A stretch of 64,000 nucleotides of DNA, taken from the NCBI GenBank assembly GCA_022483015.1, contig JAKVOB010000001.1:1-64000 (forward strand). The letters are read 5' to 3'. This stretch comes from Atopobiaceae bacterium. Lineage in GTDB: Bacteria; Actinomycetota; Coriobacteriia; Coriobacteriales; Atopobiaceae. The stretch's first letter is position 1. The number at the start of each line of letters is the position of its first letter. This document shows positions 17,048 to 22,558 of this stretch, piece after piece. The notes under the pieces are model-generated. The model was not told the DNA's origin, ran no database searches, and worked only from the letters and a program-made list of their open reading frames with translations. Both the position numbers and the translations under genes were made by a program.

Positions 17048-17911
17048 ATGGCAGACACCCTTCCCCCGAACCAGCTCGTCTTCAAGCGCAACGAGGTGAA
17101 GTACCTCCTCGGCCCCAAGGAGCGCGGCGCGCTCGAGGGCGCGATGGAGGACCGCATGGCCTTGGACGAGCATGGCCAATCCATGGTCACGAGCATCTAC
17201 TTCGACACGCCCACGGGCCTGCTCTGCCGGCGCTCCCTCGAGGGTGGCCCCTACAAGGAGAAGCTCCGCGTGCGCGCCTACGGACCGGTCATGCCCGACT
17301 CGTCGGCCTTCGTCGAGATCAAGAAGAAGTGCCGCGGCATCGTCTACAAGCGCCGCGTGGCGGTGAGGGCCGCAGGTACCCTGTCGGCGCTCACCGACCA
17401 TCGCTGTGACAGGCTCCTGCCCCCCGACGGCCATGACGCAGGTCCCACCGACCGCCAGATCCTCTCCGAGATCGACTACCTCCTCGGACGCTACCGCGGG
17501 ATGTCCCCTGCCTTCTGCATCACCTACCTGCGCAAGGCCTTCCTCGCCAGCGACGGCTCCGACCTCAGGATGACCCTCGACACCGACATCCGCTGGTATG
17601 CCTGCACCCCGGACGGCGGAAGCTCATGGACCGAGGGCCTCGCCTCCCCCCAGGGCTCACCGTTGCTCGGGACCGGCGAGGGCCTCCTCGAGCTGAAGAC
17701 CGCCTTCGCGGCCCCCCTCTGGCTCACCCACCTGTTCGACCGGCTCCGGGTCCGCCCCACGTCCTTCTCGAAGGTAGGCCGTGCCTTCATGGCCGACGAG
17801 GCGGCACATCTTGCCCCGGCGGCCCTCCACCTTGCCACGCTCCCGAACATGGGGGCCGAGTCTGACCATGACACCCATCCTGACCACCTAGGGAGCCTTC
17901 GCTATGCCTGA
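17048..17911 (+). CDS. VTC-domain protein (polyphosphate polymerase-like)
   Basis: The 287-residue protein has the VTC domain of CYTH/TTM-fold enzymes, which in yeast Vtc4 makes polyphosphate. Family features are the N-terminal RNEVKYLL, SIYFDTP, then a basic KEKLRVRAYG and FVEIKKKCRGIVYKRR. Late in the chain is GEGLLELKT with the acidic residues that bind metal. Positively charged and acidic strands alternate as in a tunnel enzyme. It starts at ATG 17048 (GAGGAG upstream) and overlaps the next gene by 8 nt. Polymerase activity in bacterial stand-alone VTC proteins is inferred; a role in the synthesis or export of a surface polymer is equally possible. Confidence 0.85.
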   Translation: MADTLPPNQLVFKRNEVKYLLGPKERGALEGAMEDRMALDEHGQSMVTSIYFDTPTGLLCRRSLEGGPYKEKLRVRAYGPVMPDSSAFVEIKKKCRGIVYKRRVAVRAAGTLSALTDHRCDRLLPPDGHDAGPTDRQILSEIDYLLGRYRGMSPAFCITYLRKAFLASDGSDLRMTLDTDIRWYACTPDGGSSWTEGLASPQGSPLLGTGEGLLELKTAFAAPLWLTHLFDRLRVRPTSFSKVGRAFMADEAAHLAPAALHLATLPNMGAESDHDTHPDHLGSLRYA

Positions 17912-18599
17912 CCTCTTCTCGAGCGTCTTCGCCACCACGTCCACCACCACCGAGACGCTCTCGGTAGGTGGGTTCCTCGCCTGCGTCGGCGTCGCGCTGC
18001 TCATCGGACTCTTCCTCGCCTACGTGCATGCGCGGTCGAGCAGGGCCTCCAAGAGCTTCACGACCACCATCGCCCTGCTCCCTGCCATCGTCTGCGTCGT
18101 CATCATGATGGTGAACGGCAACATCGGTGCCGGCGTGGCCGTGGCCGGCGCCTTCAGCCTCGTCCGCTTCCGCTCGGCCCCCGGCACCGCCCGCGAGATC
18201 TGCTCGATCTTCCTCGCTATGGGCACCGGCCTCATCTGTGGCATGGGATACCTGGGCTATGCGGTCCTGTTCGCCGTCGTCCTGGGCTTCGTGATGCTCT
18301 TCTACAACCGCATCGGCCTGGGAGGAGAGGGGTCCGGCAAGCTCACCCTTGCCATCACCATCCCCGAGGGCCTCGACTACGTGGGCGAGTTCGATGACCT
18401 CTTCGAGACGTTCACCTCGGCCCATGAGCTCATGGGCGTCAAGACCACCAACATGGGCAGCATGTACAAGCTCACCTACGCCATCGTCATGCACAACGAC
18501 GATGCCCAGCAGGCCTTCATCGACCAGCTGCGCTGCCGCAACGGCAACCTCGAGATCTCGATCACCCATCCCCAGGAGGAGGTCGGCTATGAGCTCTAG
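17904..18599 (+). CDS. DUF4956 family membrane protein
   Basis: A 231-residue protein with about four membrane segments in its first 145 residues (LACVGVALLIGLFLAYV, TIALLPAIVCVVIMMV, the glycine-rich NGNIGAGVAVAGAFSLVRFRSAPGT block, and GYLGYAVLFAVVLGFVMLFY) and a cytoplasmic alpha/beta tail. The AGAFSLVRFRSAPGTAREI block is typical of DUF4956. Members nearly always sit next to VTC-domain genes, as here, and probably form a membrane partner or channel for them. It overlaps the VTC gene by 8 nt and the next gene by 11 nt. The biochemical role is unknown. Confidence 0.85.
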   Translation: MPDLFSSVFATTSTTTETLSVGGFLACVGVALLIGLFLAYVHARSSRASKSFTTTIALLPAIVCVVIMMVNGNIGAGVAVAGAFSLVRFRSAPGTAREICSIFLAMGTGLICGMGYLGYAVLFAVVLGFVMLFYNRIGLGGEGSGKLTLAITIPEGLDYVGEFDDLFETFTSAHELMGVKTTNMGSMYKLTYAIVMHNDDAQQAFIDQLRCRNGNLEISITHPQEEVGYEL

Positions 18600-20292
18600 G
18601 ACCAGGACCGCGCCTGCGCTCGCCCTCACCTGCGTGCTCGCACTCGGCCTCAGCGCCTGCTCGGGCAGCGGCACGACCACGGCTGCCACGACGACCGCAT
18701 CCTCGACCGAGGCCTCCACGTCGTCCGATGCCACCACCGACACCGGCACGACCACGACCGTCGCCGCGACCGACCTCGACACCACGAGCATGTTCACCGA
18801 CCGCGACCTCTCGGGCAAGACCGACAGCACCTCGGCCACCATCACCCTCTCGGGCTCAGGCGCCACGAGCACCTCGAGCTCGGGCGTCTCGATCGACGGG
18901 AGCACCATCACCATCACCGACGAGGGCACCTATGTCATCACCGGCTCCGGCACCGACGTGCAGGTCGTGGTCGCAGCCGAGGACACCGACAAGGTCCAGC
19001 TCGTCCTCGACGGCGCCACGATCCAGAACTCGACCCTGCCCGCCATCCGCGTGGCCACGGCCGACAAGGTCTTCCTCACCATGGCCGACGGGACCACCAA
19101 CGCGCTCTCCGTGAGCGGGACCGTGGCCGACCCGTCCGACGAGAAGGCCGACGCCGTGGTCTTCTCGCACGACGACCTGACCGTGAACGGGACCGGCGCC
19201 CTGAAGGTCAGCGCCCAGGGGGGCCATGGCATAGTCTCGAAGGACGACCTGGTCTGCGCCGGCGTGACACTCGAGGCCGACGCCTCGGGAGCCTGCCTGA
19301 AGGCCAACAACAGCGTGCGCATCGCAAGCGGGACCTACACCCTCACCTCTGACGACGACACCATCCATGCCGACTCCAACGACACCGTCGGCGGCTTCGT
19401 CTACATCCAGGACGGCACCTTCACCCTGGACGCGGGCGATGACGCGATCCATGCCGACGGGGCCACCCTCGTGGCCGGCGGCACCGTGGACGTCGAGAGG
19501 AGCTACGAGGGCATAGAGGGGACGACCGTGGCGCTGACGGGAGGCGACGTGACCGTCGTCTCGAGCGATGACGGCATCAACGCCGCATCCTCCGACGCCT
19601 CGGGCGACACGAGCACCGACCAGGTCGCGGCCGGCAACACCACCACCTCCACGGGTTCGGGCCAGGGTGGCCAGCAGGGTGGTGCCATGCAGGACTTCCA
19701 CTCCAACGACTCCGCCAACGCCAGCAGCGGCGGCATGATGATGGACACGGACGACAGCTGCGTGGTCACCATCTCGGGTGGCACCCTCACCATCACGGCC
19801 TCGGGTGATGGCATCGACTCCAACGGCACCGTCGACGTCACCGGAGGCACGACCTACGTCTATGGCCCCGAGAGCGGTGGCAACAGCTCGCTGGACTATG
19901 GCACGGGGGCCACGATCTCGGGCGGCACCTTCCTCGCCGCGGGTTCGACCGGCATGGCCGAGAACTTCACCGACGGCACGCAGTGCACGGGCCTCGTGAC
20001 CCTCTCCGGCTCGGCGGGTGACACCATCACCGTGAGTGACTCGTCCGGCACCACCATCGCACGCACGACGGTCGCCGCGTCGTACGGCTGCGTCATCGTG
20101 AGCTCGCCCGACCTGACCCAGGGTTCCACCTATACCGTGAGCAACGGCAGCACGAGCACGCAGGTCACCTTCGACAGCACGATCGAGAGCAGCATCTCGG
20201 GCGGCGGCACCAACATGGGCGGCGGACAGACCTCTGGTGGCATGGGCAGCGGGCAGGCCCCTGGCCAGAAGTCGTCCTCGAGCGCAGCCTAA
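18589..20292 (+). CDS. Cthe_2159-type carbohydrate-binding beta-helix lipoprotein
   Basis: A 567-residue exported lipoprotein: the signal ends in a lipobox (LGLSAC), then a long Thr/Ser/Ala linker. From about residue 110 come repeated short beta strands with motifs such as GTYVITGSGTDVQVVV, GGHGIVSKDDL, YTLTSDDDTIHAD, DAGDDAIHADG and ASGDGIDSNGTVDVTGG. The recurring DD-x-I-H/N-A/S-D/N turns are typical of the Cthe_2159/DUF4353 calcium-dependent polygalacturonate-binding right-handed beta-helix. A Gly/Gln/Met-rich loop interrupts it, and the tail is Gly/Ser-rich. ATG 18589 has AGGAGGAGG upstream and overlaps the DUF4956 gene. The ligand here is not known. Confidence 0.85.
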   Translation: MSSRTRTAPALALTCVLALGLSACSGSGTTTAATTTASSTEASTSSDATTDTGTTTTVAATDLDTTSMFTDRDLSGKTDSTSATITLSGSGATSTSSSGVSIDGSTITITDEGTYVITGSGTDVQVVVAAEDTDKVQLVLDGATIQNSTLPAIRVATADKVFLTMADGTTNALSVSGTVADPSDEKADAVVFSHDDLTVNGTGALKVSAQGGHGIVSKDDLVCAGVTLEADASGACLKANNSVRIASGTYTLTSDDDTIHADSNDTVGGFVYIQDGTFTLDAGDDAIHADGATLVAGGTVDVERSYEGIEGTTVALTGGDVTVVSSDDGINAASSDASGDTSTDQVAAGNTTTSTGSGQGGQQGGAMQDFHSNDSANASSGGMMMDTDDSCVVTISGGTLTITASGDGIDSNGTVDVTGGTTYVYGPESGGNSSLDYGTGATISGGTFLAAGSTGMAENFTDGTQCTGLVTLSGSAGDTITVSDSSGTTIARTTVAASYGCVIVSSPDLTQGSTYTVSNGSTSTQVTFDSTIESSISGGGTNMGGGQTSGGMGSGQAPGQKSSSSAA

Positions 20293-20311: not shown

Positions 20312-20340
20312 TTGCGTTCCTCCCCCGTGGGGCATACTAT
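20312..20340 (+). promoter_or_regulatory. Promoter of the tlpA-like operon
   Basis: TTGCGT (20312-20317) and TACTAT (20335-20340) are 17 bp apart. The -10 box lies inside the left arm of the inverted repeat 20329-20374, so the promoter is probably controlled. Confidence 0.6.
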
Positions 20341-20374
20341 ATGTTACCTTGTAGGTAATCATATGGTATGCCCC
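20329..20374. promoter_or_regulatory. 46-bp inverted repeat over the promoter
   Basis: GGGGCATAC and TTACCT on the left pair with AGGTAA and GTATGCCCC on the right around a TTG centre, with one short mismatched stretch. The repeat covers the -10 box and the expected transcript start, and ends 16 nt before the tlpA-like start. It looks like an operator or leader hairpin. There is no U-run, so a terminator of the upstream operon is less likely. Confidence 0.65.
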
Positions 20375-20390
20375 ATGATAGGAGACGACC

Positions 20391-21011
20391 ATGTCCCACG
20401 GACGCCCCCGCACGTCACTGCCCGGCATCACGCTCGTCGCGGCCCTCGCCCTCGCCACCCTCGGCATCACGGCCTGCGGCTCGGCAGGTGCCGCCTCGAC
20501 CGCGACCACCTCGTCAGAAGCCACCTCGACCTCGGCCGTGACCAAGGCGGACTCGGCCATCCTGGGTACCTTCTCGGCAGATGACCTCGACGGCATCACG
20601 CATGACCAGTCGGCCCTCCAAGGCCACAGGCTCACCATGGTCAACGTCTGGGCCACCTACTGCAGCCCCTGCATCAGGGAGATGGGCTCCTTGGGCGAGC
20701 TCTCGGACGACTATGCCGACAAGGGTCTCCAGGTGATCGGCGTGGTGTCCGACACACTGAACTCCGATGGCTCGATCAGCTCGGACCAGGTGAGCACCGC
20801 CAAGAGCATCGTCGCGGCCACCGGGGCCGACTACCTGCACCTGGTCCCCTCGTCCGACCTCTATCCCCTCATCAGGACGGCGACGGCCGTACCCACGACC
20901 ATCTTCGTCGACGAGACGGGCACGCAGGTCGGCAGGACCTATACGGGTGCCAAGAGCAAGGACGCCTGGGCGGCCATCATCGACGAGACCTTGGCGGCGG
21001 TGACCTCATGA
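20391..21011 (+). CDS. TlpA/ResA-like thiol-disulfide lipoprotein
   Basis: A 206-residue lipoprotein with signal and lipobox ITAC (lipidated Cys29), a Ser/Thr/Ala linker, then a thioredoxin fold of the TlpA/ResA type. The redox motif is YCSPC (Cys91 and Cys94) after VNVWATY, and the cis-proline region is TAVPTTIFVDETG. It should act outside the membrane, reducing or isomerising disulfides of exported proteins or c-type haem sites. It overlaps the next gene by 4 nt and shares a promoter with it. No cytochrome-maturation genes are near. Confidence 0.88.
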   Translation: MSHGRPRTSLPGITLVAALALATLGITACGSAGAASTATTSSEATSTSAVTKADSAILGTFSADDLDGITHDQSALQGHRLTMVNVWATYCSPCIREMGSLGELSDDYADKGLQVIGVVSDTLNSDGSISSDQVSTAKSIVAATGADYLHLVPSSDLYPLIRTATAVPTTIFVDETGTQVGRTYTGAKSKDAWAAIIDETLAAVTS

Positions 21012-21166
21012 GGAGGATCATCTCGCTCGTCCGCCATAGCCCGCTGGCACTCGTGGTCGCCGCCGCTGGTGTCGTGCTCATCGTGATCGGCGTGCAAGGT
21101 GGGGAGGCCCAGGTCGTCTTCCGCAAGGCCTCCCAGGTCTGCATGGAGTGCATCGGCCTTGGCTAG
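21008..21166 (+). CDS. One-helix CxxC mini-protein (CD1871A-like, 52 aa)
   Basis: A 52-residue protein starting at the ATGA overlap with the TlpA-like gene. It has a basic N-terminus, one membrane helix (LALVVAAAGVVLIVIGV), then a short extracytoplasmic segment ending SQVCMECIGLG. The layout matches the CD1871A family of small CXXC-motif proteins found between thioredoxin-like and polyferredoxin genes in clostridia. A role as an electron shuttle between its two neighbours is inferred from position and the CxxC; no activity is established to my knowledge. Confidence 0.8.
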   Translation: MRRIISLVRHSPLALVVAAAGVVLIVIGVQGGEAQVVFRKASQVCMECIGLG

Positions 21167-22076
21167 GACATCCCACACAGACGGGCGCCGACCGCTCCTG
21201 CACGGGCACGCACGCCTGGTGGTCCAGGCTGCGGCCACGTTCCTCTCGAATGCCGACCTCGCCGGATTCGCCGAGGGCACCATCCACACGGGCCCGAGCA
21301 AGGCCGTCTGCGTACCGGGCCTCAACTGTTACTCATGTCCCGGGGCCGTGGGCGCCTGTCCCATAGGGTCGCTGCAGGCCGTCCTCGCGAGCCGCGGCCG
21401 GTGGGCCTCGTTCTATGTGACGGGGTTCCTCGTCCTCGTAGGGTCGCTGCTGGGCCGCCTCGTCTGCGGCTGGCTCTGCCCGTTCGGGCTCGTGCAGGAC
21501 CTCCTCCACAAGATCCCCTTCCCCCACAAGCTCAAGGTCCTTCCCGGCGAGCGCTGGGCGAGACGCCTGCGCTACGTGGTCCTGGGCCTGCTCGTCATCG
21601 TGCTGCCGCTCACCGTGCTCGACCTGGCGGGCCAAGGCCAGCCCTGGTTCTGCGAGTACCTGTGCCCGTCCGGCACCCTCTTCGCGGGCATCCCCCTCGT
21701 CGCCGCCAACCCTGGCCTCCAGGCAGCCTTGGGCTGGCTCTTCGACTGGAAGGTCGCCATCCTCGTGGCGTGCCTGCTCGCCTCCGTGGTGCTCTGGCGC
21801 CCCTTCTGCCGCTACCTCTGCCCGCTCGGTGCCGTCTACGGCCTGTTCAACCCGATCGCGCTCTATCGCTACCAGGTCGACGAGCATGCCTGCACCGACT
21901 GCGGGGCCTGCCATGCGGCCTGCCCCATGGACATCGACGCCCACGCCACCCCCAACAGCCGCGACTGCGTGCGGTGCGGGGCCTGCAAGTCGGCCTGCCC
22001 CACGGGCGCTCTCATGAGCACCTGGGAGGCGGCCGTGAGCGACCGCCTGTCCGAGGACGCGAGGCCGAGGGGCTAG
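21159..22076 (+). CDS. Polyferredoxin-type 4Fe-4S membrane protein (NapH-like)
   Basis: About 305 residues with four to five membrane helices and several cysteine motifs: CYSCPGAVGACP, then CGWLCPFG, CEYLCPSG and CRYLCPLG at helix ends. Two classical clusters follow, CTDCGACHAACP and CVRCGACKSACP, near the C-terminus. This is the NapH/RnfB-like layout for moving electrons from cytoplasmic donors to the membrane. The most likely start is TTG at 21159, 8 nt inside the preceding gene with GGAG 10 nt upstream; no better start is seen. It closes the three-gene redox operon. Confidence 0.85.
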   Translation: MARTSHTDGRRPLLHGHARLVVQAAATFLSNADLAGFAEGTIHTGPSKAVCVPGLNCYSCPGAVGACPIGSLQAVLASRGRWASFYVTGFLVLVGSLLGRLVCGWLCPFGLVQDLLHKIPFPHKLKVLPGERWARRLRYVVLGLLVIVLPLTVLDLAGQGQPWFCEYLCPSGTLFAGIPLVAANPGLQAALGWLFDWKVAILVACLLASVVLWRPFCRYLCPLGAVYGLFNPIALYRYQVDEHACTDCGACHAACPMDIDAHATPNSRDCVRCGACKSACPTGALMSTWEAAVSDRLSEDARPRG

Positions 22077-22135: not shown

Positions 22136-22558
22136 ATGTACGGACTCAAGACCGAGAGCTACTTCGACAGCGCGCACTTCCTCGCCGACTATCACGGCAA
22201 GTGCGAGAACCTCCACGGTCATCGCTGGCGCGTCGTCGCCTACATAAGCCAGGACGACCTGGGAGATGCCGGCACCGAGCGCGACATGGTGCTCGACTTC
22301 GGCCGCTTCAAGGCAACGCTGCGAGAGCTCACGGCGGAGTATGACCACACCTTCCTGGTGGAGGAGGGCACCCTCAAGCCCCAGACCATGGCGTGCCTCG
22401 AGGAGGAGGGCTTCTCGCTCACCATCCTGCCCTTCCGGACCACCGCCGAGAACCTCGCACGCCACTTCTTCGACCGCCTGGCCGAGAAGGGCCTGCCCGT
22501 CTCGCAGGTCGACGTCTACGAGACGCCGCTCAACTGCGCGACCTATCGTCGCGACTAG
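22136..22558 (+). CDS. queD: 6-carboxy-tetrahydropterin synthase (QueD-like)
   Basis: A 140-residue 6-pyruvoyl-tetrahydropterin synthase-fold enzyme. Zinc ligands His14, His27 and His29 are present (DSAHF, NLHGHRW), and Cys23 in GKCENLHGH is the catalytic cysteine expected in QueD rather than the Glu seen in PTPS-III. QueD makes the 7-deazaguanine precursor of queuosine from dihydroneopterin triphosphate. An AAGGAGG ribosome site precedes ATG 22136. No other queuosine gene is in the window, so the assignment rests on motifs. Confidence 0.88.
   Translation: MYGLKTESYFDSAHFLADYHGKCENLHGHRWRVVAYISQDDLGDAGTERDMVLDFGRFKATLRELTAEYDHTFLVEEGTLKPQTMACLEEEGFSLTILPFRTTAENLARHFFDRLAEKGLPVSQVDVYETPLNCATYRRD

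Follow-up and report, generated by a model that had tools for sequence, protein, structure and literature searches.

An overlapping gene trio encoding a TlpA-like lipoprotein, a 52-residue CxxC protein and an Fe-S membrane protein as a candidate route for electrons to extracytoplasmic thiols

The operon described here raises the question of whether reducing power can reach the outer side of an anaerobe's membrane through Fe-S clusters instead of CcdA or DsbD. It is located in the 64,000-nt stretch of Atopobiaceae DNA that was analyzed as a whole (the window) and comprises three successive, overlapping genes on the + strand. The initial annotation had placed a TlpA-like lipoprotein, a one-helix CxxC protein and a polyferredoxin membrane protein at 20391 to 22076, and all three are present and overlap as it described. 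The gene of the 206-residue lipoprotein occupies positions 20391 to 21011, that of the CxxC mini-protein 21008 to 21166, and that of the 305-residue, NapH-related Fe-S protein 21159 to 22076. ATGA (21008 to 21011) holds both the stop of the lipoprotein gene and the start of the mini-protein gene, and the mini-protein stop is overlapped by the TTG start of the Fe-S gene in TTGGCTAG (21159 to 21166). This TTG is likely the genuine start of the Fe-S protein rather than a GTG at 21099, because it fits the lengths of the homologues better. Checks of the host genome (2.28 Mb, 96% complete) were run family by family.

The lipoprotein has a lipobox (LGITAC, with Cys29 as the lipid site) and a CSPC active site (Cys91-Cys94; 20661 to 20672, + strand), whose cysteines are invariant in an alignment of 45 sequences (A3), as is Pro168. 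It matches the Pfam families AhpC-TSA (42.7 bits) and Redoxin (42.2 bits). The best fold match of its predicted model (pLDDT 86.9) is ResA (2f9s; Z 18.3, 134 residues, 2.2 A), followed by M. tuberculosis DsbF/DsbE, Etrx1 (Z 16.1) and CcmG (Z 15.9), with a weaker resemblance to glutathione peroxidase-like proteins (2p31, Z 14.5). The thioredoxin fold, CxxC, conserved proline and lipobox are those of a TlpA/ResA-type thiol-disulfide lipoprotein, in agreement with the initial assignment; the scores stay below the curated cut-offs for ResA (NF002854, 47.7 against 170) and TlpA (NF047696, 52.7 against 230). The protein is the sole match of its kind in the genome. ResA/Etrx1-like lipoproteins form a class that is fed electrons by CcdA-type proteins. 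Two of the loci collected from other genomes (L098 and L101) encode two TlpA-like lipoproteins each, one of them without a CxxC.

The mini-protein is exactly 52 residues long, with a single hydrophobic stretch and the C-terminal sequence CMECIGLG, so that its length, its hydrophobic stretch and its CxxC were all borne out. It belongs to the NCBIfam family NF040920, "CD1871A family CXXC" (51.3 bits, curated cut-off 32), for which we found a name but no function in the literature searched; no paper using the name CD1871A was found in the open-licence literature. The CMEC motif (Cys45 and Cys48; 21140 to 21151, + strand) lies at the extreme C-terminus and both cysteines are invariant. The protein terminates as C[LM]EC[IV]G[ILV]G, last residue included, in 110 of 110 sequences from the window and from two of the samples described below, the Fe-S-selected and the Coriobacteriia loci. 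The Bacillota sample holds further C-terminal variants, such as CLSCIGIQ and CLQCIGIG. One divergent branch (L160 to L178) has CLSCIGIQ or CTSCIGLR in place of C[LM]ECIGIG, and the Fe-S protein still adjoins it. No fusion of the mini-protein to the Fe-S protein or to TlpA was seen among the loci examined.

The third protein shows three Fer4_5 stretches and two Fer4 motifs in Pfam, as expected from its description as a polyferredoxin membrane protein. It falls inside the PF12801 Fer4_5 superfamily (67.6 against a gathering score of 22; Fer4, 40.1 bits) and below the thresholds for NapH/MauN (TIGR02163, 74 bits against 213) and NapH (NF007013, 63.2 against 234). The genome holds no second full-length match of this kind. 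Across an alignment of 74 Fe-S proteins (A2), 14 cysteines are invariant and 4 more are each missing in one row only. They are arranged as an N-terminal quartet, CVPGLNCYSCPGAVGAC (C51, C57, C60 and C67; 21309 to 21359), invariant except for C67 (73/74); three invariant CX3CP motifs (C103 and C107, 21465 to 21479; C165 and C169, 21651 to 21665; C217 and C221, 21807 to 21821); and a 2[4Fe-4S] ferredoxin domain with eight cysteines, C245 to C280 (21891 to 21998), all on the + strand. The structure was modeled for the protein alone, with a pLDDT of 87.1 and a pTM of 0.84; it is confident except for residues 1 to 7 and around 41 to 70, and the quartet region has a low pLDDT of about 50 to 70. In the model, the ferredoxin domain resembles 2[4Fe-4S] ferredoxins such as 1dur (Z 5.6, 52 residues, 2.1 A). 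Foldseek and profile searches matched this domain only and yielded no solved structure for the membrane part.

With the ferredoxin domain predicted to be cytoplasmic and three hydrophobic helices following the quartet, parity would place the quartet and C165/C169 on the outer face and C103/C107 and C217/C221 on the inner face. The 18 invariant or almost invariant cysteines would then be distributed as six outward and twelve inward, as in a transmembrane electron wire. Loop charges agree with this topology after C107 (predicted inner; K+R 4.7, D+E 1.1) and around C165/C169 (predicted outer; K+R 1.3, D+E 2.0). However, the quartet loop is not depleted of K and R as expected of an outer loop (K+R 4.2, D+E 0.8), and because of this disagreement we treat the topology as a prediction.

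The initial annotation had called for a survey of gene co-occurrence, which we conducted on three samples of loci with flanks of 1.5 to 5 kb: 80 loci from GTDB genomes picked with the Fe-S protein as bait (L037 to L116), 30 Coriobacteriia loci picked by the mini-protein, and 50 Bacillota loci picked by the mini-protein with weak matches deliberately included. The mini-protein was adjacent in 79 of the 80 Fe-S-selected loci, the lone exception being a contig edge, and a TlpA-like neighbor was present in 77. Both the Fe-S protein and TlpA accompanied the mini-protein in 30/30 Coriobacteriia loci. The Bacillota sample gave the Fe-S protein in 50/50 loci and a TlpA-like protein in 33/50; for the other 17, no match was detected in scanned flanks of 1.5 to 3 kb, and some TlpA genes may lie just outside. 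Divergent TlpA proteins may also escape this count, because the profile was built from TlpA neighbors. Pairs with no TlpA nearby include L112, L114, L163, L165, L168, L172 to L175, L178 and L179. The genes are thus regularly, not rarely, neighbors, and given these counts the arrangement is far beyond chance and not a local accident. The figures also set the mini-protein and the Fe-S protein apart as an invariant core, of which TlpA is a frequent, rearranged partner. The constant pairing agrees with the three-part relay of the initial annotation, but TlpA is not an obligatory part of it.

The Fe-S-selected and Coriobacteriia loci show the order TlpA-mini-FeS in 60 cases and mini-FeS-TlpA in 42 (12 + 30); since several orders occur, the linkage of TlpA outlives rearrangement. 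The pair of mini-protein and Fe-S protein spans Bacillota, Coriobacteriia, Spirochaetota and Synergistota, and among the genomes sampled, 58 of 298 from Coriobacteriia and 60 of 398 from Bacillota gave a match to the mini-protein family. At L123 (5386 to 7137, - strand), a continuous reading frame of 584 codons covers both the Fe-S protein and TlpA, and a lipobox-like segment separates the two; whether this is a true fusion is uncertain, because the TlpA part is preceded by an internal ATG that has an AGGAGG upstream of it. No conserved client gene was found near the trio in the 80 Fe-S-selected loci, where only two-component regulators and common transporters recur beyond the trio itself. Genes resembling response regulators and histidine kinases, all identified by eye, occur close to the trio in 14 to 16 of these 80 loci and also in L117, L118 and L119.

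The Fe-S protein of the window is about 60 to 67% identical to homologues of the Agathobaculum/Christensenella type and about 46% identical to those of other Coriobacteriia. In the Fe-S tree it groups with clostridial and Treponema sequences, apart from other Coriobacteriia, and this set of 20 rows is supported (95/90). Together, the identity pattern and the tree placement suggest horizontal acquisition. Upstream of the operon, the window carries genes that we take to be VTC-like, DUF4956-like and Cthe_2159-like (17048 to 20292); at one Agathobaculum locus (L042), homologues of these genes precede the same trio in the same order. A 48-bp near-perfect dyad, TGGGGCATACTATATGTTACCTTGTAGGTAATCATATGGTATGCCCCA (20328 to 20375, + strand), ends 15 bp ahead of the lipoprotein start and is a candidate operator or mRNA hairpin (RNA fold -42.4 kcal/mol, z -6.8); its core is unique in the genome, allowing up to one mismatch. 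A 6-pyruvoyl-tetrahydropterin-synthase/QueD-like gene, identified by eye, follows the operon (22136 to 22558); a search of other trio loci yielded no homologue of it.

Another question is whether CcdA or DsbD could serve the lipoprotein in this organism. No operon member has PF02683 (DsbD_TM) among its Pfam matches, and no canonical CcdA/DsbD was found in the host genome. The sole DsbD_TM match there, at G000:C1:2232832-2233599 (L036:1297-2064), is a DsbD_2/UreH-like membrane protein (PF13386, 127 bits, against 28.7 for PF02683) that adjoins a P-type ATPase and a frame with a heavy-metal-associated domain, and it was rejected as a canonical CcdA/DsbD. Among 298 Coriobacteriia, DsbD_TM was matched in 7 of 58 carriers and in 139 of 240 non-carriers, over half of the latter belonging to other orders; phylogeny strongly confounds these counts, and we therefore do not claim mutual exclusion. 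It was also matched in 6 of 18 carriers outside Coriobacteriia. Because some carriers also have DsbD_TM proteins, the trio is no simple replacement for CcdA/DsbD everywhere. The proposed lack of CcdA and DsbD thus holds for the operon and, as regards canonical forms, for its own genome, but it does not extend to all carriers.

Searches of the host genome also bear on the electron donor. Neither MenA (TIGR00751) nor the MqnA/D family (PF02621) gave a match in the 96% complete genome, so that the quinone pool expected of a NapH-type quinol dehydrogenase was not apparent, allowing for possible uptake of quinones from outside. MenA was missing from 17 of 19 carriers, and a strong PF02621 match, indicative of the futalosine pathway, occurred in one of the 19, Syntrophomonas. 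Quinol is therefore an unlikely donor in this host. As the menaquinone genes were not found, a low-potential cytosolic carrier is the better guess, and we infer that it would be ferredoxin. VKOR and MsrB were searched for as well and neither was found in the genome; MsrB was therefore rejected as a client.

These observations lead to a working mechanism, to which we assign a probability of roughly 0.5. The Fe-S protein and the mini-protein would form a membrane conduit that brings reducing power to the extracytoplasmic side, with the TlpA/ResA-like lipoprotein usually accepting the electrons. Reduction of the C-terminal 2[4Fe-4S] domain would fall to a cytosolic carrier of low potential, most likely ferredoxin. 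The CX3CP cysteines, as ligands of Fe-S clusters or as thiols, would carry the electrons across to the outer group formed by C51, C57, C60 and C67 with C165 and C169. The C-terminal CxxC of the mini-protein would take them next, converting one-electron into two-electron thiol chemistry, and would reduce the CSPC disulfide of the lipoprotein, which in turn would reduce disulfides in the envelope. The whole chain would do the job of CcdA/DsbD plus Etrx1 or ResA, with Fe-S clusters replacing cytosolic thioredoxin. Since TlpA was missing near 17 of the 50 mini-selected Bacillota loci, the conduit may serve other or distant acceptors as well. Co-occurrence, the predicted two-faced distribution of cysteines, the C-terminal CxxC and the ResA/Etrx1-like lipoprotein all speak for the relay as first interpreted; what had to be given up is an obligatory TlpA and a general freedom from DsbD and CcdA.

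The mini-protein might have a different role, that of a structural subunit whose two cysteines, added to the six outer ones, complete two outer [4Fe-4S] clusters (6 + 2 = 8). The eight ferredoxin cysteines and the four inner CX3CP cysteines would give three more clusters, and an outer cluster would feed TlpA or another acceptor directly. The cysteine count closes exactly, the mini-protein is tied more strictly to the Fe-S protein than to TlpA, and a C-terminus fixed to its last residue would suit a buried docking end. Yet such arithmetic is merely suggestive, and the conserved C-terminal CxxC fits a mobile thiol pair equally well; we regard this role as possible but doubtful. If the chain is right, its purpose may still be another one, a terminal sink such as the removal of peroxide or other oxidants outside the cell by the TlpA/redoxin-like protein, instead of the reduction of protein disulfides. 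The AhpC-TSA/Redoxin matches, the glutathione peroxidase-like fold resemblance and the lack of a conserved client near the trio would be compatible with such a sink, but AhpC-TSA also includes TlpA-type proteins, and the CxxC, the invariant proline and the best match to ResA indicate thiol-disulfide exchange, making an oxidant sink improbable.

The direction of flow could also be inward, with TlpA oxidizing secreted thiols and the conduit dumping the electrons on a cytosolic carrier in place of DsbB/VKOR. Such conduits are reversible in principle and VKOR was not detected, but ResA, CcmG and Etrx1, among the closest folds of the lipoprotein, are known reductants, and the flow of thiol electrons toward ferredoxin is thermodynamically unfavorable according to established potentials. 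We thus hold an inward chain to be quite improbable. Least probable is a NapH-type system in which the membrane module oxidizes menaquinol and passes the electrons to outer thiols. The Fe-S protein is related in sequence to NapH/MauN, and NapH-type proteins have been proposed to take electrons from quinol through their membrane segments (PMC5928378), but the lack of MenA and MqnA/D matches in the host, the absence of MenA from 17 of 19 carriers and the conservation of a cytosolic 2[4Fe-4S] domain argue against it. The ferredoxin-to-thiol mechanism is a plausible one and has better support than any of these alternatives.

The trio shares features with several known systems. The NapH/NosR/PceC family (TIGR02163, PF12801) has a membrane module with CX3CP motifs, and NapH and NosR have two C-terminal [4Fe-4S] motifs, as does the Fe-S protein. 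In contrast to them, the latter has three CX3CP motifs rather than two, an added N-terminal cysteine quartet, and a CxxC mini-protein and TlpA as partners instead of FMN domains or NapG; it also scores far under the NapH cut-off, in a host where quinone genes were not found. Like CcdA/DsbD acting with Etrx1, ResA or CcmG, the trio would feed an extracytoplasmic TlpA-like lipoprotein, but its membrane component is an Fe-S protein and not a thiol shuttle. PMC8238504 describes NapH-like systems and DsbD systems that have flavinylated partners; with the NapH-like ones the trio would share a modular delivery of electrons across the membrane. No description of the trio appears in the excerpts of that paper. 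The same excerpts report DUF4266, also a small secreted protein of an envelope redox cluster with a C-terminal cysteine motif; however, the motif is CXC rather than CxxC, and the protein is DsbD-linked and occurs with flavinylated partners in thioredoxin-like/flavinylation clusters.

The trio itself is not new. A preprint of November 2025 (PMC12637426), in its excerpts, reports a three-protein operon (4Fe-4S protein, TlpA and CxxC) from Clostridia/Firmicutes contigs, with the CxxC gene central in all but one case, and calls it previously uncharacterized and probably devoted to redox homeostasis; it is the only paper on this combination of proteins that turned up in the open-licence literature. 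The operon served there as a biomarker predicting immune-related adverse events, a statistical link to the side effects of immunotherapy. The donor, the mini-protein/Fe-S core and an analysis of wider distribution do not appear in these excerpts. Thus, the initial remark that such a route was not known as a described pathway has to yield as regards the operon, already reported, and the mini-protein, already named in NF040920, whereas it stands as regards function: no experimental or functional study of any trio member was found in the open-licence literature. Because of this coverage, the novelty of the mechanism is provisional.

We tentatively propose, at somewhat less than even odds, that the trio represents a route that is widespread and independent of CcdA/DsbD, where a low-potential cytosolic carrier, a transmembrane Fe-S wire and a mini-protein CxxC acting as a one-to-two-electron converter would supply thioredoxin-like lipoproteins. 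The carriers include many oxygen-avoiding gut bacteria. If the proposal is true, it would explain reduced envelope thiols in anaerobes without canonical CcdA or DsbD and would tie their fermentative low-potential electron pool directly to the redox chemistry of the cell surface. Knowledge of the mechanism would be directly useful, given how common the mini-protein family is and the reported association of the operon with immunotherapy side effects. With 52 residues and conservation up to the final one, the mini-protein would also offer a compact model for electron transfer from Fe-S clusters to thiols.
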